Below are positions 2,456-42,471 of a DNA stretch of 64,000 nt, in pieces (within the stretch, counting starts at the first letter, position 1; every line of letters starts with the position of its first letter). This DNA is from [Empedobacter] haloabium (GTDB taxonomy: Bacteria > Pseudomonadota > Gammaproteobacteria > Burkholderiales > Burkholderiaceae_D), in contig CP136508.1 in the NCBI GenBank assembly GCA_008011715.2, forward strand, positions 2,728,001 to 2,792,000, given 5' to 3'. The position numbers were made by a program, and so were the translations under genes. The notes under the pieces were generated by a model, which saw only the letters and a program-made list of their open reading frames with translations, made no database searches and was not told the origin of the DNA.

Positions 2456-3259
2456 TCAGCCCCAGAATTTCCACCACTTCCGCTCGGCTTTGGGCGCACC
2501 CTCCTCGAGGAACTTCGAGTTCGGGAAGTTCAGCTTGAACACCCGCATCGTATCGTCGCGCAGGGAGGTGTTGCCCAGCTTGTCGTAGCTGCGCGCCATG
2601 ATCCACAGCGCTTCCTCGATCGACGGCGAGTCGCGGTAGTCGCGCACGGCGTCCTGGGCGCGGTTGGCGGCGGCCAGGTAGGCGCCGCGGCGGTAGTAGT
2701 AGCGCGCCACGTACACTTCGTACTTGGCCATCGCGTTGATCAGGTACTTCATCCGGTCGACGGCGTCCGGCGTGTATTTGCTGTTCGGGAACTTGTCGAC
2801 CAGGGCCTTGAACGCCGCGAACGCTTCGCGCGTGGCCTTCGGATCGCGCTCGGCGGGATCTTGCTCGTAGACGAAGTTCAGCAGGCTCAGCTGGTCATTG
2901 AAGTTGACCAGGCCGCGCAGGTAGTACATGTAGTCGACGTTCGGATGATTCGGGTGCAGCTTGATGAAACGCTCCACGGCGGCCAGGGCCTGCGCCTGGT
3001 CCTGCGCCTTGTAGTGGGCATAGGCCACTTCCATCTGCGCCTGCTGCGCGTACACGCCGAACGGGTAGCTGGCTTCCAGCTTTTCATACAGCTGGATTGC
3101 GCGCTCGTAGTGCTGGCCGGCCATTTCTTCCTTGGCCTCCGAGTATAATTTCGTTGCGGACCAACCTTTGGTCTCATCGGCCTGTTCAGGTAACAGGCCG
3201 CAGGCCGACAAACTGAGCAGTGCTACGGATGCTGCCAACACCTTGATTTTTTTTTGCAT
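2456..3259 (-). CDS. bamD: outer-membrane assembly lipoprotein BamD
   Basis: A 267-residue TPR lipoprotein of the BAM complex, which inserts beta-barrel proteins into the outer membrane. The start at 3259 gives a signal peptide ending in LSAC with lipidated Cys20; the mature part has tetratricopeptide helices such as LYSEAKEEMAGQHYERAIQLYEKL and the YPFGVYAQQAQ block typical of BamD. The frame runs open far upstream across rluD, but that extension is antisense shadow. Divergent from rluD over 66 nt; the minus strand has TATAAT at 3310-3305, a possible -10 element for bamD. Confidence 0.95.
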   Translation of the reverse strand: MQKKIKVLAASVALLSLSACGLLPEQADETKGWSATKLYSEAKEEMAGQHYERAIQLYEKLEASYPFGVYAQQAQMEVAYAHYKAQDQAQALAAVERFIKLHPNHPNVDYMYYLRGLVNFNDQLSLLNFVYEQDPAERDPKATREAFAAFKALVDKFPNSKYTPDAVDRMKYLINAMAKYEVYVARYYYRRGAYLAAANRAQDAVRDYRDSPSIEEALWIMARSYDKLGNTSLRDDTMRVFKLNFPNSKFLEEGAPKAERKWWKFWG

Positions 3260-3325
3260 GTTCTCGTGCAAGAAGACGTTTAAACAAGATACTACACTAG
3301 GCTGATTATAGCCGATGGGAATGCT

Positions 3326-4435
3326 GTGAACTTGAACCATGTGCCGGATACGGCCGAACAACTGCCCGATCCACTCCTCGACAACGATGTTGACGCCGAT
3401 TTCGACGGCGAGTTTCCCGCCGCCGAGGCGCCCGGCTTTGCCGCGCCGCTGGCGCCGATCGAGCTGCAACTGACGCCCGAAGCCTGCGGCGAGCGGCTCG
3501 ACAAGGTCATCGCGAAACTGGTGCCGCAATTCTCGCGCGGCCGCCTGCAGAGCTGGATCGAGGAGGGCTTCGTCACCGTCGACGGCAAGCCGGCCAAGGT
3601 GCGCGCCACCGTCTACGGGGACGAGAAGATCGTCGTGCTGCCGCAGGCGGCGCCGGAGGACGTGGCGTTTGCTCCCGAAGAGATCGCCCTCGATGTCGTG
3701 TACGAGGACGACCACCTGATCGTCATCAACAAGCCGGCCGGCCTGGTCGTGCATCCGGGGGCGGGGAACTGGTCCGGCACCTTGCTGAACGGCCTGCTGC
3801 ATCGCTGGCCCCAGCTGGGCGGCGTGCCGCGCGCCGGCATCGTCCACCGCCTCGACAAGGACACCAGCGGCCTGATGGTGATCGGCAAGGACCTGCCCAC
3901 GCAGACCGACCTGGTGCGCCAGCTGCAGGCCCGTACCGTCAAGCGCGAGTACTGGGCGCTGGTGTGGGGCACGCCGCGCCTGTCGGGCACCATCGACGCC
4001 TCGATGGGCCGGCACCAGAAAGACCGCGTCAAGATGGCGGTCTCCACCAGCCTGGGCTCGAAGCCGGCCATCACGCATTACCAGCGCCTGGAATCGGGCG
4101 AGCTGGACCGCCGTCCCGTCAGCCTGGTGCAGTGCCGCCTGGAGACAGGCCGCACCCACCAGATCCGCGTCCACATGGCGCACCTGGGCTTCCCGCTGGT
4201 AGGCGACTACGTCTACGGCAAGCCGCACCTGACGGGCGTGTTCCATCGCCAGGCCCTGCAGGCCCGGCGCCTGGGCCTGGTGCATCCGGCCACCGGCCAG
4301 GACTGCGAATGGATCGTGCCGCTGGCCGACGATTTCCGCGCGCTGCTGGACGAGGCGGGCATCGAGGAACCCCCGGAAACCGTCATCGGTGACGACTATG
4401 CCGATGCGGACGACTTCGACGACGAGGACGAATGA
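3326..4435 (+). CDS. rluD: 23S rRNA pseudouridine(1911/1915/1917) synthase RluD
   Basis: Converts three uridines of helix 69 in 23S rRNA to pseudouridine. Of 369 residues, about 1-45 form an acidic extension; an S4-type RNA-binding domain follows at about 50-100, then the RluA-family catalytic domain with HRLDKDTSG, in which Asp177 is the nucleophile, and GRTHQIRVHMAHLGFPLVGD. Translation starts at GTG; no ATG fits. The last codon and stop overlap the ATG of pgeF (ATGA), indicating coupled translation. An rluD-pgeF pair downstream of divergent bamD is a conserved arrangement in proteobacteria. Confidence 0.95.
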   Translation: MNLNHVPDTAEQLPDPLLDNDVDADFDGEFPAAEAPGFAAPLAPIELQLTPEACGERLDKVIAKLVPQFSRGRLQSWIEEGFVTVDGKPAKVRATVYGDEKIVVLPQAAPEDVAFAPEEIALDVVYEDDHLIVINKPAGLVVHPGAGNWSGTLLNGLLHRWPQLGGVPRAGIVHRLDKDTSGLMVIGKDLPTQTDLVRQLQARTVKREYWALVWGTPRLSGTIDASMGRHQKDRVKMAVSTSLGSKPAITHYQRLESGELDRRPVSLVQCRLETGRTHQIRVHMAHLGFPLVGDYVYGKPHLTGVFHRQALQARRLGLVHPATGQDCEWIVPLADDFRALLDEAGIEEPPETVIGDDYADADDFDDEDE

Positions 4436-5229
4436 GCAAAACCTCCAACGCGCCGCAATGGCTGGTGCCGGACTGGCCGGACCTGCCGGCCACGGTCGGC
4501 GTACTGTGCACCACACGGCGCGGTGGCGTCAGCCCGCCGCCGTATGACGACGGCCAGGGCAAGGGCGGCCTGAACCTGGGGATCCACGTGGGCGATGCGC
4601 CCAGGTGCGTCGAGCGCAACCGCGACATCGTGCGCGCCGAGCTGCCGTCCGAGCCGGTCTGGCTGACGCAGGTGCATGGCACGGCCGTCGTGGACGCGTC
4701 CACGGTGGACACCATTGCCGGCGTCACGCCCACGGCGGACGCCAGTTTTACGCGCGAACGTGGCGTGGTGTGTGCCATCCTGACGGCGGACTGCCTGCCG
4801 GTGCTGCTGTGCGACACGGCCGGCACCGTGGTCGGCGCCGTGCATGCGGGCTGGCGCGGCTTGGCCGAGGGCGTGCTGGAACAGTCGGTGGCGACGATGC
4901 GCGCGGCCGGCGCCGGCGAATTGCGCGCCTGGCTGGGCGCGGCGATCGGCCCGGCCCGCTTCGAAGTGGGGCCGGAAGTGCTGGAAGCCTTCCTGGCGCG
5001 CGCCGAAGGCAGTGTCGACCTGGTGCGCGCCGCCTTCATCCCGCTGCCCGAGCGCCCCGGCAAATACCTGTGCAACCTGTATGCGCTGGCCCGCATCGCG
5101 CTGGCGCGCGTGGGCGTGCAGCGCGTCGCCGGCGGCGACTTCTGCACGGTGTCGAACTCCGGCCGCTTCTACTCCTTCCGCCGCGACGGCGTCACGGGCC
5201 GCCAGGCCAGCCTCATCTGGATTCGGTGA
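4432..5229 (+). CDS. pgeF: peptidoglycan editing factor PgeF / multicopper polyphenol oxidase fold (YfiH)
   Basis: A 265-residue DUF152/laccase-domain protein. Family members remove wrongly inserted amino acids from muropeptide precursors (PgeF) and show purine nucleoside phosphorylase/adenosine deaminase activity with a zinc site. Visible are LTQVHGT (His ligand), DCLPVLLCD (Cys ligand) and VHAGWRGL (His ligand), the three conserved Cu/Zn ligands. The C-terminus ends FYSFRRDGVTGRQASLIWI as in most homologues. It overlaps rluD by four bases. Family is certain; which activity dominates here is not shown by the sequence. Confidence 0.92.
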   Translation: MSKTSNAPQWLVPDWPDLPATVGVLCTTRRGGVSPPPYDDGQGKGGLNLGIHVGDAPRCVERNRDIVRAELPSEPVWLTQVHGTAVVDASTVDTIAGVTPTADASFTRERGVVCAILTADCLPVLLCDTAGTVVGAVHAGWRGLAEGVLEQSVATMRAAGAGELRAWLGAAIGPARFEVGPEVLEAFLARAEGSVDLVRAAFIPLPERPGKYLCNLYALARIALARVGVQRVAGGDFCTVSNSGRFYSFRRDGVTGRQASLIWIR

Positions 5230-28607: not shown

Positions 28608-29423
28608 TCAGCCGGCGCAGCGCAGCAGTACGGCTGTCACGTTGTCGCGGCTGCCGTCATGCAGCGCCAGCGCCACCAGCGCGGCACAGCGTTCGTGCAG
28701 GTCGTCGTCGCGCGCGTCCGCCAGGATGGCGGCGATGGCGCCATCGGCGCTGTCGCCGTGCAAGCCGTCGCTGCACAGCAGGAACAGGTCGCCCGGCGCC
28801 ACCGGCTGCACCAGCAGTTCCGGTTGCACGGCGGGGCCGGGTCCCAGCGCCTGCAGCAACAGGTTACGGCCCGGCAGCATGGCGGTGCGGCCCGCGTCCA
28901 GGGCCTGCTGGTACAAGGTCTGGTCGTGCGTAACCTGGGCGATACGGCCGGCGCGCAGCAGGTACAGGCGGCTGTCGCCCACGTGGCCGACGTAGGCCGG
29001 GCCGGCAGGGTCGGGGCGCCACAGCGCCGTCAGCGTGGTCCCCATGCCGGTGCCCTCGGGCCGGCCCAGCGCCGTGTTGGCCTGGTACAGCCGGGCGTTG
29101 GCGTGCGCCACGGCGGCGCCCAGGGTGTGCAGGGGTGCCGCGCCGTGCGCACCCGGGGCGAAGGTATCGTCGGCGCCGTGGCCGGCAGCGCGGAGGAACG
29201 CGTGCAGCAGTGCCAGCGCTTCGGCGCTGGCGGTGGCGCCGCCCGCGTGGCCGCCCATGCCGTCGGCCACGGCCAGCAGGCCGGGCTGCGGCGCGAGCAG
29301 GAAGTTATCCTCGTTGGCCGCGCGGAACGGACCGGTCTCGGTTAGGCCGAAGGCGGTGCCGCCGGCCAGCGCGCAGTACTGCGACGTAGACAACGGCGGC
29401 GACAGCGGCGGGTGGCTGGCCAT
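28608..29423 (-). CDS. PP2C-family Ser/Thr protein phosphatase
   Basis: A 271-residue PPM/PP2C phosphatase removing phosphate from Ser/Thr on proteins, Mn/Mg dependent. Motifs include RAANEDNFL (first metal Asp), VADGMGGHAGG, VGDSRLYLLRAG, LCSDGLHG and SRDNVTAVLL, the complete metal set. No membrane helix. It begins 10 nt after the stop of the penicillin-binding protein gene with GGAGGG upstream, so the two are likely cotranscribed. No Ser/Thr kinase or FHA protein is adjacent, so its partner kinase is elsewhere. Confidence 0.92.
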   Translation of the reverse strand: MASHPPLSPPLSTSQYCALAGGTAFGLTETGPFRAANEDNFLLAPQPGLLAVADGMGGHAGGATASAEALALLHAFLRAAGHGADDTFAPGAHGAAPLHTLGAAVAHANARLYQANTALGRPEGTGMGTTLTALWRPDPAGPAYVGHVGDSRLYLLRAGRIAQVTHDQTLYQQALDAGRTAMLPGRNLLLQALGPGPAVQPELLVQPVAPGDLFLLCSDGLHGDSADGAIAAILADARDDDLHERCAALVALALHDGSRDNVTAVLLRCAG

Positions 29424-29433
29424 ATACCCTCCG

Positions 29434-31869
29434 TCAGTCGCCCGGCGGGGGCGGCTGCTGCGGCGCCGGCGCGCCTGGCGGCTGCGGCACGATGTTCGAC
29501 GCCGGCGCGCCGGGCGTCACCGGAATGACCGGCGGCGCACCCGGCACCGCGGCCGGCGCAGCGCCTTCGCCAGCTGCCGGCTGCGGCGCGGCATCGCCCA
29601 GGTCGATGCCCTTGACGGTCGGGTCGTTGGCGTATTCCTCGTAGATCCAGTCGCCGTCCAGCTGGACGACGCCTTCCGGCACCGGGCGCTCCGCCACGGG
29701 GCGCCTGGCCAGCGCCACCTTCATGTAGTCGATCCAGATCGGCAGGGCCAGGGAAGAGCCGAACTCGCGGCTGCCCAGCGACTTCGGCTCGTCGTAGCCC
29801 ATCCAGGCCACCGCCACGATGCCGCCGCCGTAGCCGCCGAACCAGCCGTCCACCGCGTCGGTCGTGGTGCCGGTCTTGCCGGCGATGTCGGTTCGGGCCA
29901 GGCGCTGCCAGGCGGTGGCGCCGGTGCCGCTGCGGGCCACGTCGCGCATCATGCTGTCGACGATGAAGGCATTGCGGGCGTCCAGCACGCGATTGGCTTC
30001 GTCGGGACGGCTCGGCGCCGGTCCCGCCTTCAGCAGCTTGCCGCTGGCGTCCTCGATGCGGGCGATCAGGTAGGGCTGCACCTTGTAGCCGCCGTTGGCG
30101 AACACCGCGTAGGCGCCGGCAAGCTGCTGCGGCGTGACCGCGCCGGTGCCCAGCGCCATCGTCAGGTTTTGCGGATGCCTGGCCAGGTCGAAGCCGAAGC
30201 GGCCCAGGAACTCGTGCGCGTACGGCACGCTGATCGCGTTGAGGATACGTACCGACGGCACGTTTTTCGACTTCGTCAGGGAGGTGCGCATCGTGATCGG
30301 ACCGTCGAACACGAAGTCGTCGTTCTGCGGGCGCCACGGCTCGCCGTTGGCGCCGCCCGGCAGCTCGATCGGCACGTCGTTGATCAGGGTGGCCGGCCCG
30401 TAGCCCTTTTCCACCGCGGCGGAATAGACGAACGGCTTCAGCGACGATCCCGGCTGGCGCCAGGCCTGCGTCACGTGGTTGAACTTCTGCAGGTTGTAGT
30501 CGAAGCCGCCCACCATCGCGTGGTACGCGCCGGTGCTGGCGTCGATCGAAGCGAAGGCCGCCGCCACCGTCGGCACCTGCGTGATGGCCCAGCGCTTCTT
30601 GCCGTCACGCTGGACATGCGAGACGCGGATGATGGCGCCCGGGCGCAGGCGGATGCTGTCCTTGGCCTTGGCCGACAGGGCGCCCGCCGCCAGCTTCAGG
30701 CCGTCGCCCTTGATCGTGACGTCGTCGCCATCGGCCGTTTCGGCGCGTACCTCGGTGCTCGATGCGCTCAGCACGACCGCCGCGATCAGGCCGTCGCTGG
30801 ACGGGCGTTTTTCCAGCGCCTCGTCGATGGCTTCGTCGCGTTCCTCGCCCTCGTCCGGCAGCTCGATGAAGCCCTCCGGGCCGCGGTAGCCATGGCGCTG
30901 GTCGTAGGCGATGACGTTGCGGCGCACCGATTCGTACGCGGCGTTCTGGTCGGCCGACAGGATGGTCGTGCGCACCACGATGCCGCGCGTGTAGGCGTCC
31001 TCGTTGAACTCGGCCACGGCGGCCTGGCGCGCCAGCTCCGCCACGTAATCGGCGTGCGTGTCGAATTCCTGGCCGCGGCTGTTGACCCGGATGGTTTCCT
31101 TGACCGCCGCGTCGTACTGTTCCTGCGTGATGTAGTCGATGTCCAGCAGGCGGCGCAGCACCACCTCCTGGCGCGCCTTGGCGCGCTTGAAGTTGACCAC
31201 CGGGTTGTGGCGCGCGGGGTTCTTCGGCAGGCCGGCCAGCATGGCCATCTCGGCGATCGACAATTCCTTCAGCGACTTGCCGAAATAGACCTGGGCGGCG
31301 CCGGCGAAGCCGAACGAGCGCTGGCCCAGGTAGATCTGGTTCATGTACAGTTCGAGGATCTGGTCCTTGGTCAGCGCGTCCTCGATCTTGTAGGTCAGCA
31401 TGACCTCGTTGAGCTTGCGCGACAGGACTTTCTCGCGCGTCAGGAAGAAGTTGCGCGCGACCTGCATCGAAATCGTCGAGCCGCCCTGGCGGAAGCCGCC
31501 CGCCAGGTTGGCCTTCATCGCCCCCACCATGCGTACCCAGTCGATGCCGCCATGCTCGTAGAAGCGGGTGTCCTCGATGGCCAGCACCGACTTCTTCATC
31601 ATCTCCGGGATCTGGTCGATCGGCACGAAGTCGCGGTGCTCCTCGCCGAATTCGCCGATCAGCACATTGTCGGCCGTGTAGACGCGCAGCGGAATTTTCG
31701 GTTTATAGTCCGTCACGGCTTCCAGCGACGGCAGTCGCGGCTTCACGATCAGGAACAGGTAGGCCAGCAGCGCCAGGGCGGCCAGCAGGCCGGCGACGCC
31801 GACGAACAGCAGGCCGCGCACGGCGTTGCGCCGATTGATCCAGGTAGTCTTCAAGTGAGTGGCTTCCAA
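29434..31869 (-). CDS. mrcA: penicillin-binding protein 1A, bifunctional
   Basis: Polymerises glycan strands and cross-links peptides in the periplasm. An 811-residue class A PBP: one N-terminal anchor (about residues 18-42), a GT51 domain with catalytic Glu99 in IEDTRFYEHGGID and GGSTISMQVARNFFL, an OB-like insert, then the transpeptidase with SSLK (Ser475, Lys478) and KTGTT (Lys665). The C-terminal 60 residues are Pro/Ala-rich and end PPPPGD. The first gene of a two-gene unit with the PP2C phosphatase; divergent from glpD. Confidence 0.95.
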   Translation of the reverse strand: MEATHLKTTWINRRNAVRGLLFVGVAGLLAALALLAYLFLIVKPRLPSLEAVTDYKPKIPLRVYTADNVLIGEFGEEHRDFVPIDQIPEMMKKSVLAIEDTRFYEHGGIDWVRMVGAMKANLAGGFRQGGSTISMQVARNFFLTREKVLSRKLNEVMLTYKIEDALTKDQILELYMNQIYLGQRSFGFAGAAQVYFGKSLKELSIAEMAMLAGLPKNPARHNPVVNFKRAKARQEVVLRRLLDIDYITQEQYDAAVKETIRVNSRGQEFDTHADYVAELARQAAVAEFNEDAYTRGIVVRTTILSADQNAAYESVRRNVIAYDQRHGYRGPEGFIELPDEGEERDEAIDEALEKRPSSDGLIAAVVLSASSTEVRAETADGDDVTIKGDGLKLAAGALSAKAKDSIRLRPGAIIRVSHVQRDGKKRWAITQVPTVAAAFASIDASTGAYHAMVGGFDYNLQKFNHVTQAWRQPGSSLKPFVYSAAVEKGYGPATLINDVPIELPGGANGEPWRPQNDDFVFDGPITMRTSLTKSKNVPSVRILNAISVPYAHEFLGRFGFDLARHPQNLTMALGTGAVTPQQLAGAYAVFANGGYKVQPYLIARIEDASGKLLKAGPAPSRPDEANRVLDARNAFIVDSMMRDVARSGTGATAWQRLARTDIAGKTGTTTDAVDGWFGGYGGGIVAVAWMGYDEPKSLGSREFGSSLALPIWIDYMKVALARRPVAERPVPEGVVQLDGDWIYEEYANDPTVKGIDLGDAAPQPAAGEGAAPAAVPGAPPVIPVTPGAPASNIVPQPPGAPAPQQPPPPGD

Positions 31870-31985
31870 GGTTGCGAAACCGGGCCATTATAGAGCAGTC
31901 AAGAGCGCGGGCAGGCGCCGCGCTCTTGCGGAACGGTCGGTAAGTGTCGTATCTTGATGGAAATTCTTCAGGCCGGAGTGACGCG

Positions 31986-33560
31986 GTGGCGCACGAATAT
32001 TCGCAAGCTGGACCATACGATGGGGCGCCGGGGCCGCAATGCGGCCGGGCTGGCGCCGACTGCGACGTGCTCATCATCGGCGGCGGCATCCATGGCGCGG
32101 GCATCGCGCGCGACGCGGCCGGGCGTGGCCTGTGCGTCGCCCTGTGCGACCAGGGCGACCTCGCCGCGCACGCCGCGTCCGCCTCCACCAAGTTGATCCA
32201 TGGCGGCCTGCGCTACCGGGAGTATGCCGAATTCGCCCTGCTGCGCAAGGCGCTGGCCGAGCGCGAGGTGCTGATGCGCGCGGCGCCACATATCACGTGG
32301 CCGCTGCGCTTCGTGATGCCGCACGGCCCGGGCCAGCACGCGGCGCCGATGGTGCGGGCCGGCCTGTTCCTGGTCGACCGCCTGACCCGGCGCCAGTTGC
32401 TGCCCGGCTCGCACGGCGTGCGCCTGTCCTGCCACCCGGCCGGCCGCGCGCTGCAGCCGCGCTTCACGCGGGCCTTGGTATATGCGGACGGCTGGGTCGA
32501 CGACGCCCGCCTGGTCGTGCTGAACGCGCTGGACGCGGCCGAGAAAGGCGCCTGCGTGCTGCCGCGCACCCGCTGCGTGGCGGCGCGGCGCGACGGCGAC
32601 ATCTGGCGCGTGACGCTGCGCCGCGCCGACGGCAGCGAGAAGCAGGTCAGCGCGCGTGCGCTCGTCAACGCGGCGGGACCGTGGACGGCGCAGGTACTGG
32701 GACTGGCGCTGGGCCAGGCGCAGGCGGGCCGGCTGCGGCTCGTCAAGGGCAGCCACATCGTCGTGCCACGGCTGTTCGAGCACGATTACGCCTACCTGTT
32801 CCAGCACGCGGACGGCCGCGTCATCTTCGCCATTCCCTACGAGCGCGATTTCACGCTGATCGGCACGAGCGACGTGGACTACACCGGCGACCCGGCCGCC
32901 GTCGCCGTCGACGCCGGCGAGATCGCCTGGCTGTGCGACGCGGCCAGCACCTGTTTGCGCACACCGGTACGGCCGGCCGACGTGGTGTGGAGCTACGCTG
33001 GCGTGCGGCCGCTGCTGGACGAGGCGGCGCGCGACACCCGGGCCGTCACGCGCGACTACCGGCTGGCGCTGGACGAACAGGGCGCGCCGCTGCTGTCGGT
33101 CTTCGGCGGCAAGCTGACCACCTATCGCAAACTGGCCGAGGAAGCGGCGGACCTGTTGTGCCGCCAGTTGGGCCGGCGCGCGCCGGCGTGGACCGAACGC
33201 GCCTGCCTGCCCGGCGGCGACCTGTTCGGCGCCCAGCCGCAGAACCGAGCCGTGCTGGAGTTCGACGGCTGGCGCTCGAGCATGCAGGTGCACTACGCCT
33301 TCCTCGACCCGGCCCTGGTGCGGCGCTACGCCCGCGCCTACGGCACCCGCATCCACACGCTGCTGCGCGGGCGCACGACGCTGGCGGACATGGGGGAGGC
33401 AATCCTGCCCGGCCTGTATGAGGCCGAGGTGGCGTATCTGCGCCAGCACGAGTGGGCGCGCACGGCCGAGGATATCCTGTGGCGGCGTTCCAAGCTGGGG
33501 TTGCATCTGGGGCCGCAGGCCGCGGCCGTGCTGCAGGCCTGGCTGGACGCGCATGAGTAA
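31986..33560 (+). CDS. glpD: glycerol-3-phosphate dehydrogenase, FAD-dependent
   Basis: Oxidises sn-glycerol-3-phosphate to dihydroxyacetone phosphate at the inner membrane, passing electrons to quinone. The FAD Rossmann motif is LIIGGGIHGAGIARDAAGRG, followed by STKLIHGGLRYREYAEF and GTSDVDYTGDP, and ends with the GlpD C-terminal domain. GTG at 31986 is chosen because GGAG lies 7 nt upstream; a GTG at 31944 in the same frame lacks a ribosome site. glpK and glpF are not adjacent. It converges with the HNH gene 39 nt downstream. Confidence 0.92.
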   Translation: MAHEYSQAGPYDGAPGPQCGRAGADCDVLIIGGGIHGAGIARDAAGRGLCVALCDQGDLAAHAASASTKLIHGGLRYREYAEFALLRKALAEREVLMRAAPHITWPLRFVMPHGPGQHAAPMVRAGLFLVDRLTRRQLLPGSHGVRLSCHPAGRALQPRFTRALVYADGWVDDARLVVLNALDAAEKGACVLPRTRCVAARRDGDIWRVTLRRADGSEKQVSARALVNAAGPWTAQVLGLALGQAQAGRLRLVKGSHIVVPRLFEHDYAYLFQHADGRVIFAIPYERDFTLIGTSDVDYTGDPAAVAVDAGEIAWLCDAASTCLRTPVRPADVVWSYAGVRPLLDEAARDTRAVTRDYRLALDEQGAPLLSVFGGKLTTYRKLAEEAADLLCRQLGRRAPAWTERACLPGGDLFGAQPQNRAVLEFDGWRSSMQVHYAFLDPALVRRYARAYGTRIHTLLRGRTTLADMGEAILPGLYEAEVAYLRQHEWARTAEDILWRRSKLGLHLGPQAAAVLQAWLDAHE

Positions 33561-33598
33561 TCCCGAGTCTCGACGGCACGCCGGTGCAGCTATGACGT

Positions 33599-34567
33599 TC
33601 AGGCAGCCAGCAGGTCCATCAGGTCAAGTCCGGCGCGGCGCAGGGCGGCGAAGCGGCGCGAGCCGCGATGGCGTTCCAGGTACTGCCGCAACATTGCCTG
33701 ATACGGGGCCTTGGCGCCGAAAAAGCCTGCCATCTTGACGAAGACCAATTGCAATTGCGCCTCGTTGCTCCTGCGCGCGCGTGCGTTGCGCACATGCGCG
33801 TGCATGGCGATCAGGTGGGCGGCGTCGCGTACGAGAAAGTCGAAGTCGTCCAGCGTCTTCTTGCGCTGTTCCACCAGGGCGGCGCGCTGCAGCGCATACA
33901 CCTCGATCGAGTGCAGGCCCTTTTCGCTGGGCCGGCCATCGGGCTGGATACGTGGGCGTACCAGGCCATCCTCGCCGAACTCCAGATGGTCTCCCGGCTG
34001 GTCGAAATACGGATGCAGCAGCAGTCGCGCCTGCTCCTCGTCGTCCAGCACGCCAGTGTGGCTGCGCACGCGCACCCCTTCCCGCAGGAGCGGGAACTGG
34101 GATGCCTTGCCTAGTTGCTGAATGTCGTTGACGCCGGGAACCTCGTGTCCCGCGCTGCGATTGCAGCGCGGGCACGCGACCACGAGGTTGTGCCAGTTCG
34201 CGCCCAGCCAGTAGTAGCCAGGATGGTAGGCGTAGCCGGCGCCCTCGATGGAGGCCTTGGGACGGTAGTGGTCGATGTCTTTCGGCGTGACGTGCGCCAT
34301 CGCGCTCTCGCAATAGCCGCACTTCTTGTTGAACTTGCCGTCCAGGTAGTCCGATACCTCCTTCTCACTGTAGATGCGGAAGACGAAATTCTCTTTCGAT
34401 ACCTTTTTGTTGCCGGCGTAGTGGGCCGCATTCGTGAAATGGGCGATCGCCCGTTCGGTTTCGCTGGCCGCCCTTGTCAGCCGGACCCCGCCCTTGCGGC
34501 GCACCGTCTTCTCATGAAACACCTTCAGCGTGGCCGGTGGATCGGCCTCATGCGCCACGGGAATCAT
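33599..34567 (-). CDS. HNH endonuclease, PtuB-like (second gene of a Septu-like cassette)
   Basis: A 322-residue HNH nuclease. Cys83-Gly-Tyr-Cys86 and Cys132-Pro-Arg-Cys135 form a structural zinc site; between them DIDHYRPK gives the catalytic His100, and WHNLVVAC gives Asn127. A second conserved block reads RLLLHPYFDQPGDHLEF near residues 181-197. This arrangement is that of the TIGR02646/PtuB-type HNH proteins found in Septu and some retron systems. The start at 34567 overlaps the stop of the ATPase gene (ATGA), so translation is coupled; the frame is open to 34603 but adds only non-conserved residues. It probably cuts DNA or another nucleic acid under control of the upstream ATPase protein. 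Confidence 0.85.
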   Translation of the reverse strand: MIPVAHEADPPATLKVFHEKTVRRKGGVRLTRAASETERAIAHFTNAAHYAGNKKVSKENFVFRIYSEKEVSDYLDGKFNKKCGYCESAMAHVTPKDIDHYRPKASIEGAGYAYHPGYYWLGANWHNLVVACPRCNRSAGHEVPGVNDIQQLGKASQFPLLREGVRVRSHTGVLDDEEQARLLLHPYFDQPGDHLEFGEDGLVRPRIQPDGRPSEKGLHSIEVYALQRAALVEQRKKTLDDFDFLVRDAAHLIAMHAHVRNARARRSNEAQLQLVFVKMAGFFGAKAPYQAMLRQYLERHRGSRRFAALRRAGLDLMDLLAA

Positions 34568-36813
34568 GACCCGCCCCGCGCCTGCTTGATGGCGTCCCGC
34601 CACAGGGCCGTCACCGTATTGCGCGCGGCGGTGGAGGTTTTCGGCAGCCTGAGCGCGCCGCGCTGCCGCTCGCGCGTCAGTTCCCTATCCACCAGCTCGT
34701 ACATGCGCTGCTCCCGCGCAGTGCCGCCGAAGTGAGCGCGGCCTTTCAGTTCGGCTTTCAGCTCGGCCAGCCGCCGCGCCTGCGCACGGTCGGGCCGCGT
34801 CAGCGCCAGCAGCGTGTAGTACTCGTCGAACAGGCTCTCCGTTTCCGGGTCCGAGGTGGAGCGCAGTCCGAAGAACTGCGACGTGAGCAACTGCTCGACG
34901 CGGTAGTCGGCCGGCGACGGCAGGTCGCCGGTCGCTTCGATCTCGCCGTTGGCGTCGCGTCCCATCGTCGTGACCTCGCCCTTGCCGACGCCGCGCAGGC
35001 ACAGCGGCTCGTGCGTCGTGACGATGAACTGCATGCCGGGCAGCGCGCGCCGCAGGCTGCCGACGACGCGCATCTGCCAGCGCGGATGCAGGTGGACACC
35101 GATCTCGTCGAGCAGCACGATGCCTTCCGCATTCGCGGCCGAAGGCCAGAAGACCATGGCCGTGCGCAGGATGTCGGCGGTCAGGGCAATCATGCCCTGA
35201 TAGCCATCGCTGAGCTGCGTGAGCGGGATCCAGGCGCCGTGCAGGTCGACGCTGACAACGCCATCGCGCCGGCGCAAGGTGGCTGCCGGAGGCAGGCACA
35301 ACAGATCTTGCAGGATCAGCGCGACATCGCTGAACCTGCGAATGTCCAGGCTCATCAGCCAGCTGTTGGCGTCGGCGAGCGGGGCGAACGGATCGAACAG
35401 GTTGGTAACGCGCACGGGACTGTCGAAATCGTACTGCGTGTCCATCTGCCGCCGCGCCCCGAGGCGGGTGGCCCCATACCCGAGCAGCACGGTTGGGGGG
35501 GTGCTCACGGGACCCTGCGCCTGCACATCGCTTCCCGTCATGCTCAGCGTTACTTCCGCGCCGAAGGCGCCAGTGAAACGCAGTGAATCCGCCGTAAACG
35601 TCAATGTATGCGGCTCAGTAAAACCGCTGAGTTTCACGGAGACGCGCCCGCTCTTGCAGCGTTGCCGGATGAACTCACTGGGTACCAGCAGCCCATTGCG
35701 CATCAGTTCGAGGCAAGCATCCGGGCCCGCGAGCACTGCCCCGACGGCCCGCAAAACCGTGGTTTTGGCGGTGCCGTTTTCCCCCAGCAGTACCATCCAT
35801 GAGCCGCCAGCGTCAGGCCCATGCGTCATGGGCAATGCAAGCTGCGTTATCGCACGGACGTTGGAGATTGAAATCGACTCGATGGTCCGGCTCTGCAACC
35901 GGTACCGCTCGAGATTGCGCTGGTGCTTCAGCGAGTACTCGGCCTGCAGCGCGGTGCGCTCGTGTTGGCGCAACCGTACGGCATCGCGCCTGGCCGCGGA
36001 GCTGGCGGAAGGCACGGCGGGCCATTGCCATTCCACGGCTGGCAGCGGCACGTCGACCTTGGCGAGCACCCGACTGATGAACTGGCGGTTGGCGCCCGCG
36101 TAGACATGGGAAGGCATCGCCAACTGAACCAGGGCCTTGCCGAGATCATGCAGTTGCATGCGTATCCGGGGATGCAGCCCGATCTGATCGTTGGCCTGTT
36201 GAATTGCCTGTTCTATCTGCGAGACATGCGCCGCGCAGGCCTTGCGCGCCGCCACCAGTCCCGGGCGATTCAAGTCGAGGACGGCGATGGTGATCGTACC
36301 TTCCTCGGTCAAGCCGCTGACTTCGCCAGACTCGTCGAACAGCAGATGTTCGCCCGGATCGTCGGAGTAAGGGTGCAGCAGAAGGCGCGATTCTTTGCTC
36401 AGGTCGCCATCTGGCGCATGCACACGGCTGCGCTCGGAGCGCAGGGGAAAGCGATTGCGTTTGGCGATATTGCATGCGCGACACGCAGGCAGGAGATTTC
36501 GGCGCTCCAATGCCGTCCACCAGTAACCGGGATGCGCGGTATTCTCCAGCACGCTGGACTTGGGCCGATACAGCTCGATGTCTATCGGCCCGGTGAGTTC
36601 CAGGTGGCTTTCGCAGTAGGCGCACTTGCGGTGGAATGTCGCCAGCAAGTGGTCGACGACGGCAGGCTCGCGATAGCTCTTGAAATCGAAGCGCTGCTGC
36701 CGGCGTTGCGCCGCCGGCAAGCTATGGAACTCCCTGGCGTGCTCGAGTTCCTTCCCCATCCGCTGAAGGACCCGGGCAGGGAGCTTCCATGGGGTGTCGG
36801 CAACTTGCAACAT
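34564..36813 (-). CDS. HNH-domain/AAA ATPase fusion, PtuB-PtuA-like (first gene of a Septu-like cassette)
   Basis: A 749-residue fusion. Residues about 60-185 resemble the neighbour HNH protein: Cys64-x2-Cys67, HPGYWW 94-99, Asn106, Cys111-x2-Cys114, and LLLHPYSDDPGEHLLF. The expected catalytic His is replaced: the motif reads DIELYRPK with Leu81. Residues about 310-670 form an SMC/RecF-like ATPase: Walker A GENGTAKTT (344-352, with Ala349 where Gly is usual), signature-like LSDGYQG (534-540), Walker B GIVLLDE (564-570) and TTHEP (599-603) with a switch His. The C-terminal 70 residues are charged and helical. The family link to Septu PtuA is inference from domain order. Both genes sit between housekeeping genes with no mobility gene adjacent. 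Confidence 0.83.
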   Translation of the reverse strand: MLQVADTPWKLPARVLQRMGKELEHAREFHSLPAAQRRQQRFDFKSYREPAVVDHLLATFHRKCAYCESHLELTGPIDIELYRPKSSVLENTAHPGYWWTALERRNLLPACRACNIAKRNRFPLRSERSRVHAPDGDLSKESRLLLHPYSDDPGEHLLFDESGEVSGLTEEGTITIAVLDLNRPGLVAARKACAAHVSQIEQAIQQANDQIGLHPRIRMQLHDLGKALVQLAMPSHVYAGANRQFISRVLAKVDVPLPAVEWQWPAVPSASSAARRDAVRLRQHERTALQAEYSLKHQRNLERYRLQSRTIESISISNVRAITQLALPMTHGPDAGGSWMVLLGENGTAKTTVLRAVGAVLAGPDACLELMRNGLLVPSEFIRQRCKSGRVSVKLSGFTEPHTLTFTADSLRFTGAFGAEVTLSMTGSDVQAQGPVSTPPTVLLGYGATRLGARRQMDTQYDFDSPVRVTNLFDPFAPLADANSWLMSLDIRRFSDVALILQDLLCLPPAATLRRRDGVVSVDLHGAWIPLTQLSDGYQGMIALTADILRTAMVFWPSAANAEGIVLLDEIGVHLHPRWQMRVVGSLRRALPGMQFIVTTHEPLCLRGVGKGEVTTMGRDANGEIEATGDLPSPADYRVEQLLTSQFFGLRSTSDPETESLFDEYYTLLALTRPDRAQARRLAELKAELKGRAHFGGTAREQRMYELVDRELTRERQRGALRLPKTSTAARNTVTALWRDAIKQARGGS

Positions 36814-36893
36814 GAATGTTACTTTCTGGAAATAAAGCCCATTCTATTAGAAATCGCCAATCCGGACAAATGAGTATGTCGTGCCCGCCGATA

Positions 36894-36920
36894 AAAAAAG
36901 CGGCTAACGGCCGCTTTTTT
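36894..36920 (-). terminator. intrinsic terminator after the peptide transporter
   Basis: Stem AAAAAAGCGGC / GCCGCTTTTTT (36894-36904 with 36910-36920), 5-nt loop, T-rich on both strands. It ends the POT transporter transcript and separates it from the HNH-ATPase gene, which therefore needs its own promoter in 36814-36893, an AT-rich stretch. Confidence 0.88.
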
Positions 36921-36938
36921 CCTTACAAGCAGGGACGC

Positions 36939-38444
36939 TTACTTCACGCCATGCATCAACTTCTGGATCAACGGCGCGACGATGAACAGCACGATACCGC
37001 CACCCACCAGCGACCAGAAGCCGAACGTGTAGCCCGACAGCGCGGACGCCACCGACATGCCCGACTCGCCGCTGACGTGCGAGGCGAAGATGCCGGACAG
37101 GTTGTTGCCGATGCCGGTCGACAGGAACCAGCCGCCCATGCCCAGGCCGACCAGGCGCACCGGCGCCAGCTTCGTCACCATTGACAGGCCGATCGGCGAC
37201 AGGCACAGCTCACCGATGGACTGGATCACGTAGACCATGAACAGCGTCCAGAACGGAATCTTGCCTTCGGCGGACACCAGCGAGGACAGTGCGAACATCA
37301 ACAGGGCGAAGGCGACGCCGTTGAAGATCAGGCCCAGGCCGAACTTGCGCGGGATCGACGGGTCGGCGTTGCGGCGCGCCAGCCAGATCCAGATGGCGGC
37401 GACGATCGGCGCGCAGGTGATGATGGCGATCGAGTTCACGCTCTGGAACCAGGCGGTCGGGAAGACCCAGCCGCCGAAGTCGCGGTTGACGATGTTCTCG
37501 GCCAGGAAGGTGAACGAGCTGCCGGCCTGTTCGAAGAACATCCAGAACAGGATGTTGAAGGCGAAGATGATCAGCATCGCGAATACCTTGTCGCGTGCCA
37601 CGGGGCCGTTGCGGAAGCCTTCGATGATCAGCATGACGGAGAGCAGGATGAACAGCACGGTCAGCACCGCCTGCAGCTGCTTGGCGCCGACCGCCAGCAG
37701 CATGAACACGACGGGAATGACGACGAAGGCCCCCAGGATCACGTACAGCACGCGCGCCATGCCCACGGCCTGCGGCTCGGGTGCGCCGATGCCCTTCAGG
37801 CCCTGGCGGCCGATGAAGAACCACACCAGGCTGATCAGCATGCCCACGCCGGAGGCGATGAAGACGATCTTGTAGGCGGGCGTGTCGCCCGTGTTGAAGA
37901 TGTGCTGGGCCAGGTACTGGGTCAGGATCGGCGCGATGAAGGCGCCGCCGTTGATGCCCATGTAGAAGATGGTGAAGCCGCTGTCACGACGGGTGTCGGC
38001 GGCCGAGTACAGCTTGCCCACCATCGTCGAGATGTTCGGCTTGAACAGGCCGTTGCCGGTGACGATCGTGGCCAGGCCCAGCTTGAAGATCGTGGGGTCC
38101 GGGTAGGCGATCATGAACAGGCCGGCCGCCATGAAGGTGGCGCCGATCAGGATGGAACGCTGGTAGCCCAGCACGCGGTCGGCCACGTAGCCGCCGAACA
38201 GCGCCGCCGCGTAGACCAGCGCCAGGTAGGAGCCGTAGGTCAGGTTGGCATCGGCTTCGCCGGAGGAAGCGCCGCCGTGGAACTGGGCCACGATATACAG
38301 GACCAGGGCCCAGCGAATGCCGTAGAACGCAAAGCGTTCCCAGAATTCGGTCATGAACAACATCCAGAGTGGGCCGGGATGTCCCATGATCTGGCGGAAT
38401 TCCGGGATCGCCGTTTCTCGCGCCGTATTGGTTGCACCGCTCAT
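36939..38444 (-). CDS. dtpA: POT/PTR2 proton-dependent oligopeptide transporter
   Basis: A 501-residue major-facilitator protein importing di- and tripeptides with protons. The POT signature EFWERFAFYGIRW lies in helix 1, GYVADRVLGYQR follows helix 2, and GNGLFKPNISTMVGKLY and FYMGINGGAFIAP are the PTR2 signatures. About 14 hydrophobic segments are seen, matching bacterial POTs. GAGGTCTCC precedes the ATG on the minus strand. The symbol follows the E. coli family and the exact peptide range is not known. Confidence 0.9.
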   Translation of the reverse strand: MSGATNTARETAIPEFRQIMGHPGPLWMLFMTEFWERFAFYGIRWALVLYIVAQFHGGASSGEADANLTYGSYLALVYAAALFGGYVADRVLGYQRSILIGATFMAAGLFMIAYPDPTIFKLGLATIVTGNGLFKPNISTMVGKLYSAADTRRDSGFTIFYMGINGGAFIAPILTQYLAQHIFNTGDTPAYKIVFIASGVGMLISLVWFFIGRQGLKGIGAPEPQAVGMARVLYVILGAFVVIPVVFMLLAVGAKQLQAVLTVLFILLSVMLIIEGFRNGPVARDKVFAMLIIFAFNILFWMFFEQAGSSFTFLAENIVNRDFGGWVFPTAWFQSVNSIAIITCAPIVAAIWIWLARRNADPSIPRKFGLGLIFNGVAFALLMFALSSLVSAEGKIPFWTLFMVYVIQSIGELCLSPIGLSMVTKLAPVRLVGLGMGGWFLSTGIGNNLSGIFASHVSGESGMSVASALSGYTFGFWSLVGGGIVLFIVAPLIQKLMHGVK

Positions 38445-38666
38445 GCGGAGACCTCCTGAAAAAAAGTCGCCATTGTAATGTACCGGCCCGGAATGTCGAT
38501 CTTTTCAGGTGGTGCACCGCAGCAATGTTGTGTGTTTGCTGAATTGTCTACAATTGTTGCAACCGTGTTGGCCCTATAGGAGGGGCGGGATGCGTGTATA
38601 TTGACGGTTCGTACGGCCCTATTGCAGAGCACGGCGGGCCGGGAAACTGATAAGGATTGATGCACC

Positions 38667-40040
38667 ATGGAACAAGGCTTTGTCGATACACTGATTTCAC
38701 CAGAGGGCAAACTTGAGGTCTTGTCCAAGGCAGAGGTCGTCAAACTGCTCGATTCGGGCAAGGGCGGTCTCTACAATATGTTCCGCAACTGCGCGCTGGC
38801 GGTCCTCAACTGCGGCAGCACCATCGACGATGGCAAGGAGCTGCTGGAGCGCTACAAATCGTTCGAGATCAACATCATCCAGCGCGAGCGCGGCATCAAG
38901 CTGGAGATCAAGGGGGCCCCCGCGATCGCCTTCGTCGACGGCAAGATGATCAAGGGCATCCACGAGCACCTGTTTGCCGTGCTGCGCGACATCGTCTTCG
39001 TCAGCAACGAAGTGACGGACAACCCGAAGTTCGACCTGGCCTCGACCGAAGGCATCACGGACGCCGTCTTCCACATCCTGCGCAACGCCAACGTGCTGCG
39101 CCCGCAACTCAATCCGAACCTGGTGGTGTGCTGGGGCGGCCACTCGATCAACCGCGCCGAGTACAACTACTCGAAGGAAGTGGGCTACCAGCTGGGCCTG
39201 CGCGGCCTGGACATCTGCACCGGCTGTGGCCCCGGCGCGATGAAGGGCCCGATGAAGGGCGCGACCATCGGCCATGCCAAGCAGCGTTTCATGAGCGGCC
39301 GCTACCTGGGCATCACGGAGCCGGGCATCATCGCGGCCGAGTCGCCCAACCCGATCGTCAACGACCTGGTGATCATGCCGGACATCGAGAAGCGCCTGGA
39401 AGCGTTCGTGCGCACGGGGCACGGCATCATCGTCTTCCCCGGCGGGGCCGGCACGGCCGAGGAGATCCTGTACATCCTGGGCATCCTGCTCCATCCGGAC
39501 AATGCCGACATCCCGTTCCCGCTGATCTTCACGGGTCCCGAGTCGTCGCGCGAGTACTTCGTGCAGATCAACGAATTCATCGGCACCACGCTGGGGCCCG
39601 AAGCGCAGCAGCGCTACAAGATCATCGTCGACGATCCGGAAGCCGTGGCGCGCGAGATGCAGGAAGGGATCAAGCAGGTGCGCGAGTTCCGCAAGGGCCG
39701 CAGCGACGCTTACTATTTCAACTGGGCCTTGAAGATCGACCACGAGTTCCAGCGCCCGTTCGCGCCCACGCACGAGAACATGCGCAACCTGAAGCTGCAC
39801 AAGAACCAGCCCGTGCACCTGCTGGCGGCCGACCTGCGCCGGGCGTTTTCCGGCGTGGTGGCGGGCAACGTCAAGGACGACGGCATCCGCGCCATCGAGC
39901 AGCACGGTCACTTCGAGATCTGCGGCGACCTGACGATCATGGAGCCGATGGACGCGCTGCTGGCGTCGTTCGTGGCGCAGAGCCGCATGAAACTGCCGGG
40001 CAAGGCCTATACGCCGTGCTACCGGGTCGTCAAGTCGTAG
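38667..40040 (+). CDS. ppnN: pyrimidine/purine nucleotide 5'-monophosphate nucleosidase PpnN (LOG/SLOG family)
   Basis: Hydrolyses nucleoside monophosphates to base and ribose-5-phosphate; in E. coli it is stimulated by (p)ppGpp. At 457 residues it has the full PpnN architecture: N-terminal DUF4478-like part, a central LOG Rossmann domain with CTGCGPGAMKGPMKGA and PGGAGTAEE (258-266), and a C-terminal DUF3412-like part. The ATG at 38667 follows AAGGATTGATGCACC. Unusually, a SLATT-domain gene follows after 7 nt on the same strand, suggesting joint transcription. Confidence 0.93.
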   Translation: MEQGFVDTLISPEGKLEVLSKAEVVKLLDSGKGGLYNMFRNCALAVLNCGSTIDDGKELLERYKSFEINIIQRERGIKLEIKGAPAIAFVDGKMIKGIHEHLFAVLRDIVFVSNEVTDNPKFDLASTEGITDAVFHILRNANVLRPQLNPNLVVCWGGHSINRAEYNYSKEVGYQLGLRGLDICTGCGPGAMKGPMKGATIGHAKQRFMSGRYLGITEPGIIAAESPNPIVNDLVIMPDIEKRLEAFVRTGHGIIVFPGGAGTAEEILYILGILLHPDNADIPFPLIFTGPESSREYFVQINEFIGTTLGPEAQQRYKIIVDDPEAVAREMQEGIKQVREFRKGRSDAYYFNWALKIDHEFQRPFAPTHENMRNLKLHKNQPVHLLAADLRRAFSGVVAGNVKDDGIRAIEQHGHFEICGDLTIMEPMDALLASFVAQSRMKLPGKAYTPCYRVVKS

Positions 40041-40047
40041 GCCGGCG

Positions 40048-40563
40048 ATGGTCGAACCGCCGTACCACCCGCCGCACGACGCCGACGCGCTGATCCTGGC
40101 GTGGCTGCGCCGGGCGCGCGAATCGCAGCTGGGCCACTACGAAATGGCGACGATGCTGGAACGGCGCAGCTACTGGCTGGGCGTGCCCGTCATCGTCATC
40201 TCCGGCGTGGTCGGCACCTCGGTGTTCGCGTCGATCGCCGCCGAGGTGGTGGCGGTCGAGGCCAAGCTGGCGGTGGGCGCGCTGAGCGTGCTGGCGGCGA
40301 TCCTGTCGAGTTTGCAGACGTTCTTCAAGTTCGCCGAGCGCGCCGAGAAGCACAAGACCTTCGGCGCCCGCTACGGCGCCATCCGGCGCGAGCTGGAAGC
40401 CATGCACGCCAGTGGCACGGCGGCGCACGAGCCGAACTACATCAATGTCCTGCGCGACAAGCTGGACCGGCTGGGCCAGGAGGCGCCGGCCGTGTCCAGC
40501 GCCATCCATGCGCGCGTGCTGAAGGTGCTGCGGGCGGACACGACGCCCGTGGCCGGCGGCTAG
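40048..40563 (+). CDS. SLATT-domain (DUF4231-like) two-TM protein
   Basis: A 171-residue membrane protein. A polar helix with WLRRARESQLGHYEMA leads into two adjacent membrane helices (about 42-63 and 72-95), then a long charged helix beginning FFKFAERAEKHKTFGARYGAIRRELE (cited by its ends FFKFAER and RRELE). This is the form of SLATT domains, predicted pore-forming effectors that travel with SMODS nucleotidyltransferases or SLOG-domain sensors. Here its only partner is ppnN, a LOG/SLOG-fold enzyme, 7 nt upstream. The role as an effector is inference; a simple membrane protein of unknown use is the alternative. Confidence 0.75.
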   Translation: MVEPPYHPPHDADALILAWLRRARESQLGHYEMATMLERRSYWLGVPVIVISGVVGTSVFASIAAEVVAVEAKLAVGALSVLAAILSSLQTFFKFAERAEKHKTFGARYGAIRRELEAMHASGTAAHEPNYINVLRDKLDRLGQEAPAVSSAIHARVLKVLRADTTPVAGG

Positions 40564-40661
40564 CGTCCAGCGTCGCTTGCTGTCCAACCAGGGCGGGATG
40601 GCGCGCGGGCGCAAGGAAGGGGCAGGATTTCGACGCGCAAGACGTAGATCGGGGACGGACC

Positions 40662-40863
40662 TGCGCCAGGTGCGCGGTGGCGGCGCCGTGCCGGTGCTGC
40701 GCCAGGGCGGCACGTGGCCTGCGTGGTGGAGTGGGTGCGGTCGACGGTGCCGGCCGGCGCGCGCTTCATTGCCGTGGCAGGCGAGGGCGGGACCGAGAGC
40801 TACCGGATCGTCGATCTGGTGGCGATGCTGGACAGGTTGGGGTCTGTCCCCAACGGGGACTGA
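40662..40863 (+). pseudogene. possible remnant of a frameshifted gene ending in a repeat
   Basis: One frame gives RGGGAVPVLRQGGT with strong GC at third positions, and from about 40714 the next frame continues as VACVVEWVRSTVPAGARF and ends DLVAMLDRLGSVPNGD, again with coding-like base use. The last seven codons and the stop come from the palindromic repeat at 40839. No start or family could be assigned. The rest of the 378-nt gap between the SLATT gene and lysS is repeat. Confidence 0.35.
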
Positions 40864-40933
40864 CCCCGAAGTTCGGCTGCGTAGCGACGAGCCCGCAGAA
40901 CTTCAGGGGCAGTCCCCATGCGGGGACAGTCCC
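40839..40933. repeat. dispersed palindromic repeat, copy 5
   Basis: GGGGTCTGTCCCC (40839-40851), GGGGACTGACCCCGAAGTT (40855-40873), AACTTCAGGGGCAGTCCCC (40899-40917) and GGGGACAGTCCC (40922-40933). Nested inverted repeat with a 25-nt centre, ending 8 nt from the lysS stop; a likely terminator for lysS. Confidence 0.85.
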
Positions 40934-40941
40934 TAGGCGGA

Positions 40942-42471
40942 TCAGTCTTCCTTGCGCAGGTGCGGGAACAGCAGCACGTCGCGGATGTTGGGCGAATCCG
41001 TCAGCAGCATGATCAGGCGGTCGATGCCGATGCCGCAGCCGCCGGCCGGCGGCATGCCGTATTCCAGCGCGCGGATGTAGTCGGCGTCGTAGTACATCGC
41101 CTCGTCGTCGCCGGCTTCCTTGGCGGCCACCTGGGCCAGGAAGCGGGCCGACTGGTCTTCGGCGTCGTTCAGCTCGGAGAAGCCGTTGGCGATCTCGCGG
41201 CCCACCATGAACAGCTCGAAGCGCTCGGTGATGCCCTTGCGGGTGTCGGACGCGCGCGCCAGCGGCGACACTTCTTCCGGATAGTCGATGATGAAGGTCG
41301 GCTCCCACAGCTGCGCTTCGGCCGTTTCCTCGAACAGCGCCAGTTGCAGCGCGCCCAGGCCGGAGTGCGCGTGCGGCTTGACGCCGAACTTCTTCAGCTC
41401 GGCCGTGATGAATTCGGCGTCGTTCAGCTGTTCGTCCGTGTAGTGCGGCGCGAACTTGTTGATGGCGCCGACGATCGTCAGGCGGTGGAACGGCTTCGAC
41501 AGGTCCAGCTCGCGGCCGCCGTAGGTCAGCACCGCCGAGCCGTGCGCGTCGATGGCGGCCTGGCGGATCACGGCTTCCGTGAAGTTCATGATCCACTGGT
41601 AGTCCGTGTACGCCGCGTAGAACTCCATCATCGTGAATTCGGGGTTGTGACGGATCGACACGCCCTCGTTGCGGAAGTTGCGGTTGATCTCGAACACGCG
41701 GTCGAAGCCACCCACCACCAGGCGCTTCAGGTACAGCTCCGGCGCGATGCGCAGGAACATCTGCATGTCCAGCGCGTTGTGGTGCGTGATGAACGGTTTC
41801 GCCGCCGCGCCGCCCGGGATCGTGTGCAGCATCGGCGTTTCGACTTCCATGAACTCGTTGTCCTGCATGAAGCGGCGGATCGACGCGATCGCGGCGGTGC
41901 GGGCCTTGAACGTGCGGCGGGTTTCCTCGTTCATGATCAGGTCGACGTAGCGCTGGCGGTACTTGGTCTCCTGGTCGGCCAGGCCGTGGAACTTGTCCGG
42001 CAGCGGGCGCAGCGACTTGGTGATCAGGCGCAGTTCCGTCACCTTCACCGTCAGCTCGTCCGTCTTGGTCTTGAACAGCGTGCCGACCACGCCCAGGATG
42101 TCGCCCAGGTCATAGGTACGGAAAGCTTCCATCGCCGCTTCGCCGGTGGCGTCCAGGGTGACGTAGATCTGGATGCGGCCGTCGCACTTGGCGCCGGACG
42201 AATCCTGCAGCGTGGCGAAGGCGGCCTTCTTGCCCGCTTCGCGCTTCAACATCATGCGGCCCGCCAGCACCACCGGCACGGGGTTCGCTTCCAGTTCTTC
42301 GCGCGACTTTTCGCCATGCTGCGCATGCAGGTCGGCGGCCTTGTGTTCCGGGCGGAAGTCGTTCGGGAAGGCGACGCCTTTTTCGCGGATCGCGGCCAGC
42401 TTGGCGCGGCGTTCGGCGATGATCTTGTTGTCGTCCTGGCCGGGCGCCTGGTCTTGGATTTCCGTAGTCAT
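40942..42471 (-). CDS. lysS: lysyl-tRNA synthetase, class II
   Basis: Charges tRNA-Lys. A 509-residue class IIb enzyme with an N-terminal OB fold ([15 protein letters not shown], then [22 protein letters not shown], cited by its start DLGDILG and end DELTV), motif 2 [22 protein letters not shown] (cited by its ends RNFRNEG and MMEFY) and motif 3 [13 protein letters not shown]. Last gene of the prfB-HAD-lysS run, 6 nt after the HAD stop. In E. coli lysS also follows prfB, so the linkage is old; the HAD gene is an insertion into it. Confidence 0.96.

Follow-up and report, generated by a model that had tools for sequence, protein, structure and literature searches.

Septu type I, represented by the E. 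coli PtuAB complex (PDB 8eea), pairs an ATPase, PtuA, with an HNH nuclease, PtuB, encoded in the order ptuA-ptuB, and substitution of PtuB at H75 or N91 (PMC13096335) or at H53 (PMC12935923) abolishes defence. A related group, the retron type I-A or Septu type II effectors (Ec78/Eco7 and Ec83), also consists of PtuA and PtuB homologues, carried on separate chains in the solved entries matched in our searches. Here we describe a two-gene cassette within a 64,000-nucleotide stretch of the [Empedobacter] haloabium genome (contig CP136508.1, positions 2,728,001 to 2,792,000; hereafter the window), which shares with Septu type I both protein families, the gene order, and the HNH and ATPase motifs, but in which the first gene, A, has a complete additional PtuB-like copy N-terminal to its ptuA part and is followed by the second gene, B, encoding a lone PtuB-type HNH protein. 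We hold, with slightly better than even confidence, that the pair is a Septu type I operon of distinct architecture, in which the free PtuB acts as the nuclease and the fused copy as a non-catalytic structural part. This reading draws on homology, the arrangement of the genes and their co-occurrence, loss of motif residues from one copy only, selection acting on the fused region, and predicted folds.

The homology between A and B lies far beyond chance, as sequence comparison confirms: BLASTP aligned them at 35% identity over 206 residues (E 2e-32), and a profile-profile comparison with hhalign joined columns 3-257 of the fused proteins to columns 15-305 of the lone proteins (probability 100, E 7.5e-59). 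Because the match spans this range, A carries a near-complete PtuB copy ahead of its ATPase. An initial annotation, made from the DNA letters alone, had proposed an HNH duplication followed by fusion, which this match supports; the shared region it described is real but wider than the approximately 120 residues it had given. The same annotation placed two minus-strand genes at this locus with an ATGA overlap, which the reading frames in Table 1 bear out, and read Leu81 and Lys350 in A and His100 in B as we do. A comes first and shares four nucleotides (ATGA) with B, whose ATG start lies inside the overlap, and ptuA and ptuB are adjacent as in Septu type I; an alternative in-frame GTG upstream of the B start would give a protein of 334 amino acids (aa).

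Both proteins were matched by the Septu models of PADLOC. The PtuA model PDLC00292 aligned to residues 16-744 of A (E 2.2e-207) and was the top PADLOC match for all three further fused proteins tested, while the PtuB model PDLC00319 matched B (E 3.4e-82). Searches of solved chains gave a concordant picture at the profile level, where A matched PtuA chains, its N terminus matched PtuB chains (22bv_F, E 1.2e-12) and B matched PtuB chains (9vh1_F, E 1.8e-16); with single sequences, the match of A to PtuA chains was confined to the ATPase, and PtuB was not found among solved chains with B as query. Profile matches to solved chains extended likewise to the retron type I-A effectors. A carries the Walker A, signature and Walker B motifs of a PtuA-type ABC/SMC-like ATPase, and B has the features of a putative HNH nuclease of the PtuB kind, its motif His and Asn residues being intact (His100, Asn127, Asn136). 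In Pfam, AAA_21 was found in A above its cut-off, and HNH in B reached 21.3 bits against a cut-off of 21.4.

The predicted folds agree with this assignment, those of A and B matching chains of PtuAB complexes. AlphaFold2 modelled A with a mean predicted local distance difference test (pLDDT) score of 89.5 and a predicted template modelling (pTM) score of 0.87, and B with a pLDDT of 95.4. In Foldseek, the 50 best rows for A were all PtuA, PtuAB or retron complexes, and the ten matches of B at E <= 0.001 were all chains of 205-258 aa that belong to PtuAB or retron I-A complexes, the E. coli Septu chain 8eea_G among them. The VIA-align rows of the fold search with A mostly span residues 286-719, largely outside the HNH part, whose assignment comes from sequence profiles together with secondary-structure prediction: in A, strands at residues 78-81 and 107-110 precede a helix at 112-118, and these run parallel to 97-100, 128-131 and 133-136 of B. 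Thus the link to Septu made in the initial annotation is borne out by the PADLOC models and by the solved PtuA and PtuB chains.

A search for relatives yielded 97 fused-gene loci: four from whole genomes (the window's own, L023, L024 and L025), nine from plasmids (opened from 36 matching records), 80 from genome contigs (the best 80 of 440 relatives, chosen as the best full-length matches to A) and four from viral contigs. Carriers include Pseudomonadota, Bacteroidota, Actinomycetota, Bacillota, Acidobacteriota, Gemmatimonadota and Planctomycetota. In even samples, where a gene counted as fused when the frame of the ATPase itself gave an HNH match, one of the four matching genomes was fused among 399 genomes of the order, and four of five among 398 genomes of the phylum. 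A lone HNH gene adjoins the fused gene in 96/97 loci, that is, in 91/92 loci, in the plasmid locus L017 and in 4/4 viral-contig loci. The sole exception is L080, where the contig ends and only the start of the downstream gene is visible. A fused homologue standing without the second HNH gene, which the initial annotation had named as contrary to its adaptor proposal, was therefore not encountered. In L017 (4001-6186, plasmid pRlX3 of Rhizobium ruizarguesonis) the fused gene is broken by in-frame stops and the adjoining lone HNH gene is intact. The viral-contig search from the lone gene returned ten loci, of which four were fused, three had an ATPase without detectable HNH and three had no ATPase found; with a query from A, none was fused in 18 loci among the matches listed. 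Another locus, L211, carries at 3089-4849 a 586-aa PtuA-type ATPase frame next to a lone HNH gene, with about 220 residues ahead of the ATPase match that gave no HNH match, a further N-terminal extension of PtuA. In the nine opened plasmid loci, A is annotated as "AAA family ATPase" throughout and B as "hypothetical protein" in eight.

To compare the two HNH copies we scored the motif set Asp/Glu-His-Asn-Asn in the 90 readable fused copies, leaving out L080 and L106 and counting near-copies such as L028 and L030 separately. We take these residues to be catalytic from what is common to HNH nucleases, with D839, H840 and N863 of Cas9 as presumed equivalents, and from the PtuB substitutions at H75, N91 and H53 cited above. 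The complete set is present in 15/90 fused copies, ten of which also keep the Lys after Arg-Pro, and in 92/92 lone partners, which keep all four cysteines as well; one row lacking His was removed from the lone count, being the broken fused gene of L017 mis-sorted as lone. Within the fused copies the first Asn is invariant (90/90), as are the four zinc-type cysteines, whereas Asp/Glu is kept in 53, His in 51 and the second Asn in 44. The ATPase residues Lys350, Ser535, Gly537, Asp569, Glu570 and His601 are kept in every one of the 90 rows. Outside this set, the viral-contig copy L208 keeps His and the second Asn, and L207 and L209 lack His.

Degeneration of the fused HNH is common, though it does not define these proteins. 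The initial annotation had called the fused HNH dead: a motif residue is indeed lost in A and in 75/90 fused copies, but the full set in the other 15 rules out a domain that is always dead. It had also regarded homologues with His at position 81 as contrary to a built-in adaptor, and such homologues occur (51/90), although 29 of them lack the second Asn. We considered whether the two residues are lost in a complementary manner, as hinted by the first 11 rows, among which only L025 lacks both; the 90 rows do not bear this out, with both residues kept in 22, His only in 29, Asn only in 22 and neither in 17, so that the two losses look independent (Fisher p 0.29). That 15 fused copies retain all motif residues could suggest a heteromeric active site shared by the two HNH copies, or one nick by each in turn, the degenerate lineages having moved to single-strand cutting; this we judge very improbable, given that the lone motif is intact in 92/92 partners whatever the state of the fused copy.

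Other residues of the fused copy bear on a different alternative, namely that it is a substrate-binding or target-selecting domain holding DNA or tRNA for cutting by the free PtuB. Arg83 (89/90) and Lys118 (80/90) are kept and could contact nucleic acid, and HNH-type strands and a helix are predicted there; Lys85 of the RPK motif, however, is kept in only 30/90 fused copies, and we consider this explanation unlikely.

The history of the fused copy was followed in trees of the ATPase part and of the HNH domains. On the ATPase-part tree the intact motif state changes at least 12 times, ten of these changes being forced by starred branches, and 24 losses are needed if loss is assumed to be irreversible; the sister rows L035 and L036 differ in exactly this state (DIEL versus DIEH). 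In the HNH trees the lone partners cluster together (90/91 in one, and 39/39 in a sample of 38 loci and the window), which suggests an old and probably single duplication of ptuB; repeated local duplication within operons is, for the same reason, not favoured.

Selection on the fused HNH region was estimated as the ratio of nonsynonymous to synonymous substitution rates (dN/dS). Of 21 hand-picked pairs, five were saturated and 16 gave values of 0.09-0.47, with dS > 1 in eight of the 16 and with rows shared among pairs; in 13 of the 16, both fused copies lack a motif residue, and the range is 0.11-0.47. Together with the four cysteines kept in 90/90 fused copies, these values indicate selection on the fold. 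They speak against a further explanation, in which both copies were once nucleases and the fused one, now redundant, is decaying by chance and persists only within a needed ATPase chain. Redundancy would account for lesions that are scattered and varied, for the 15 intact copies and for the faster divergence of the fused HNH, which exceeds that of the lone HNH in 43/46 close pairs; given the evidence for constraint, we find it quite unlikely.

Several points besides the reservations on dS and shared rows weigh against a Septu type I operon with a structural fused copy. The lone copy's dN/dS is above that of the fused copy in 4/16 pairs, and the fused copy may still cut in some lineages, because 15/90 keep every motif residue. 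The fused copies do not form one clade in either quick HNH tree (four changes, of which starred branches force two and one, respectively), so more than one fusion is possible; lineages that dropped the fused domain would be missed, because the best full-length matches were chosen. The NCBIfam models fell below their curated cut-offs, with 114.3 bits against 500 for PtuA in A, and 44 of 150 bits for PtuB and 35.5 of 52.15 for TIGR02646 in B. A model search of this kind had been proposed in the initial annotation. Because the NCBIfam models are titled for retron effectors (Ec78 equivalogs), this shortfall is no criterion for Septu in general. The window's own copy might itself be impaired, because its Walker A motif (35764-35769) reads GENGTAKT, with Ala349 in this copy alone and Gly349 in 89/90 fused rows. 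Finally, docking of B by the fused copy, the role put forward in the initial annotation, is a guess.

If the cassette is nevertheless such an anti-phage operon, it may have arisen and may work as follows. A ptuB gene would have been duplicated and one of the two copies joined in full to ptuA at its 5' end, with free copy B remaining the obligate nuclease and the fused copy retained for its fold and not for its chemistry. In the putative complex, the most likely role of the fused copy would be to sit on the ATPase and pair with, or seat, the free PtuB in the oligomer. Infection would then relieve the hold of the ATPase, whereupon free PtuB would cut nucleic acid, either DNA or tRNA. As described in PMC11555353 and PMC13096335, the targets of PtuAB differ among the studied relatives, DNA or tRNA, and we claim no target for this cassette because of that variation.

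Table 1. Coordinates of the cassette and its features within the window.
Feature	Position	Strand	Basis or remark
Gene A, 749 aa: ptuA with a fused ptuB-like copy	34564-36813	-	ATG start; PADLOC PDLC00292
PtuB-like N-terminal region of A, approximately residues 1-257	36043-36813	-	hhalign to lone-protein profile
Leu81 codon of A, at the motif His position of lone copies	36571-36573	-	sequence and alignment; His in 51/90 fused and 90/90 lone rows
ABC/SMC-type ATPase part of A, from approximately residue 309	34564-35889	-	
Lys350 codon of A, Walker A	35764-35766	-	sequence and alignment
Gene B: lone PtuB-type HNH protein, 322 aa	33599-34567	-	PADLOC PDLC00319
Codon of B for His100, the HNH-motif His	34268-34270	-	sequence and alignment
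Entire inserted stretch	33554-36887	.	blastn of both flanks to the empty site of G791

The cassette lies between convergent genes for a flavin adenine dinucleotide (FAD)-dependent oxidoreductase of the glycerophosphate-oxidase type and a POT transporter, both present in 40/40 sampled genomes of the genus. The relative G791 has no cassette and 218 bp in its place, and the short-gap relatives compared match both flanks in 8/8 cases (20 regions fetched; blastn). A search for B in 40 other genomes gave a single, weak match (E 7.8e-5). A recent or sporadic gain of the cassette fits these observations. Nine other genomes of the genus (L164-L172) carry differing stretches of more than 2 kb in the oxidoreductase-POT gap, as if it were tolerant of insertions; their frames read as ordinary or unknown genes, no family search having been run on them, and on that reading a defence hotspot at this site was rejected. 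On plasmids, L014 lies near genes annotated as ABC-three-component, and L015 near an AAA ATPase and a UvrD helicase. Within the window, a small gene at 40048-40560 encodes a two-transmembrane effector domain, SLATT_4 (Pfam 30.4 bits against a cut-off of 27), of a type whose name refers to its association with SMODS and SLOG proteins. Elsewhere in the same genome, a second ATPase-HNH gene pair (L003, 352-2142 and 2142-3218; G000:C1 3056590-3059910) has an ATPase whose top PADLOC match is the PtuA1 model PDLC00293 (E 2.8e-48) and a partner that matches the PDC-M01B and PDC-M62B models, with motifs DHYLPK and CHHCN.

Unlike a retron type I-A or Septu type II system, the cassette has no reverse transcriptase among the seven neighbouring proteins tested (28611-42471; Pfam, E <= 1e-5; retron RNA was not searched), and a retron identity was rejected on this ground. 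An ATPase-like frame of 262-478 aa with a Walker A or Walker B pattern is present in 27 of 30 TIGR02646 loci, some being cut at the locus end; when three loci were re-read over a longer stretch, L184 showed an unfused 430-aa ATPase, L185 reached a contig end and L186 had no frame with both motifs. The fused layout is already implicit in the defence-finder library. The PtuA1 models PDLC00292 (726 positions), PDLC00288 and PDLC00291, of 726-773 positions, cover A from residues 16-18 to 737-744, HNH region included, and because B also matches positions 16-244 of PDLC00292 (E 1.1e-43), the fused part is already contained in that model; the PADLOC entries as displayed make no mention of a fusion, a degenerate HNH or a paired lone copy. 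The layout had been put forward in the initial annotation as undescribed, which holds in that we found no description of it in the open-licence literature, absence from print not being implied, and does not hold for the PADLOC model.

In a wider sense, the loci may represent a large Septu branch, spread over several phyla, with a PtuB-like pseudo-nuclease on each ATPase chain, a PtuB'/PtuB hetero-assembly and repeated switch-off in separate lineages, a view to which we give a little less than an even chance. Known Septu-type complexes contain fewer PtuB than PtuA chains, the PtuA:PtuB stoichiometry being 6:2 in a table of PMC12948488 and 4:2 in the PDB titles of the matched complexes; with a PtuB-like domain on every ATPase chain, a different stoichiometry is therefore implied. 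Such a form would be a natural test case for the way PtuA seats its nuclease and holds it in check, and the fused copies, intact and degenerate ones being scattered, form a series in which to study what remains for a nuclease domain to do once cutting has stopped. If the branch is as proposed, it would offer a natural series of nuclease-to-scaffold conversions, with at least 12 state changes, or 24 losses if these are irreversible.

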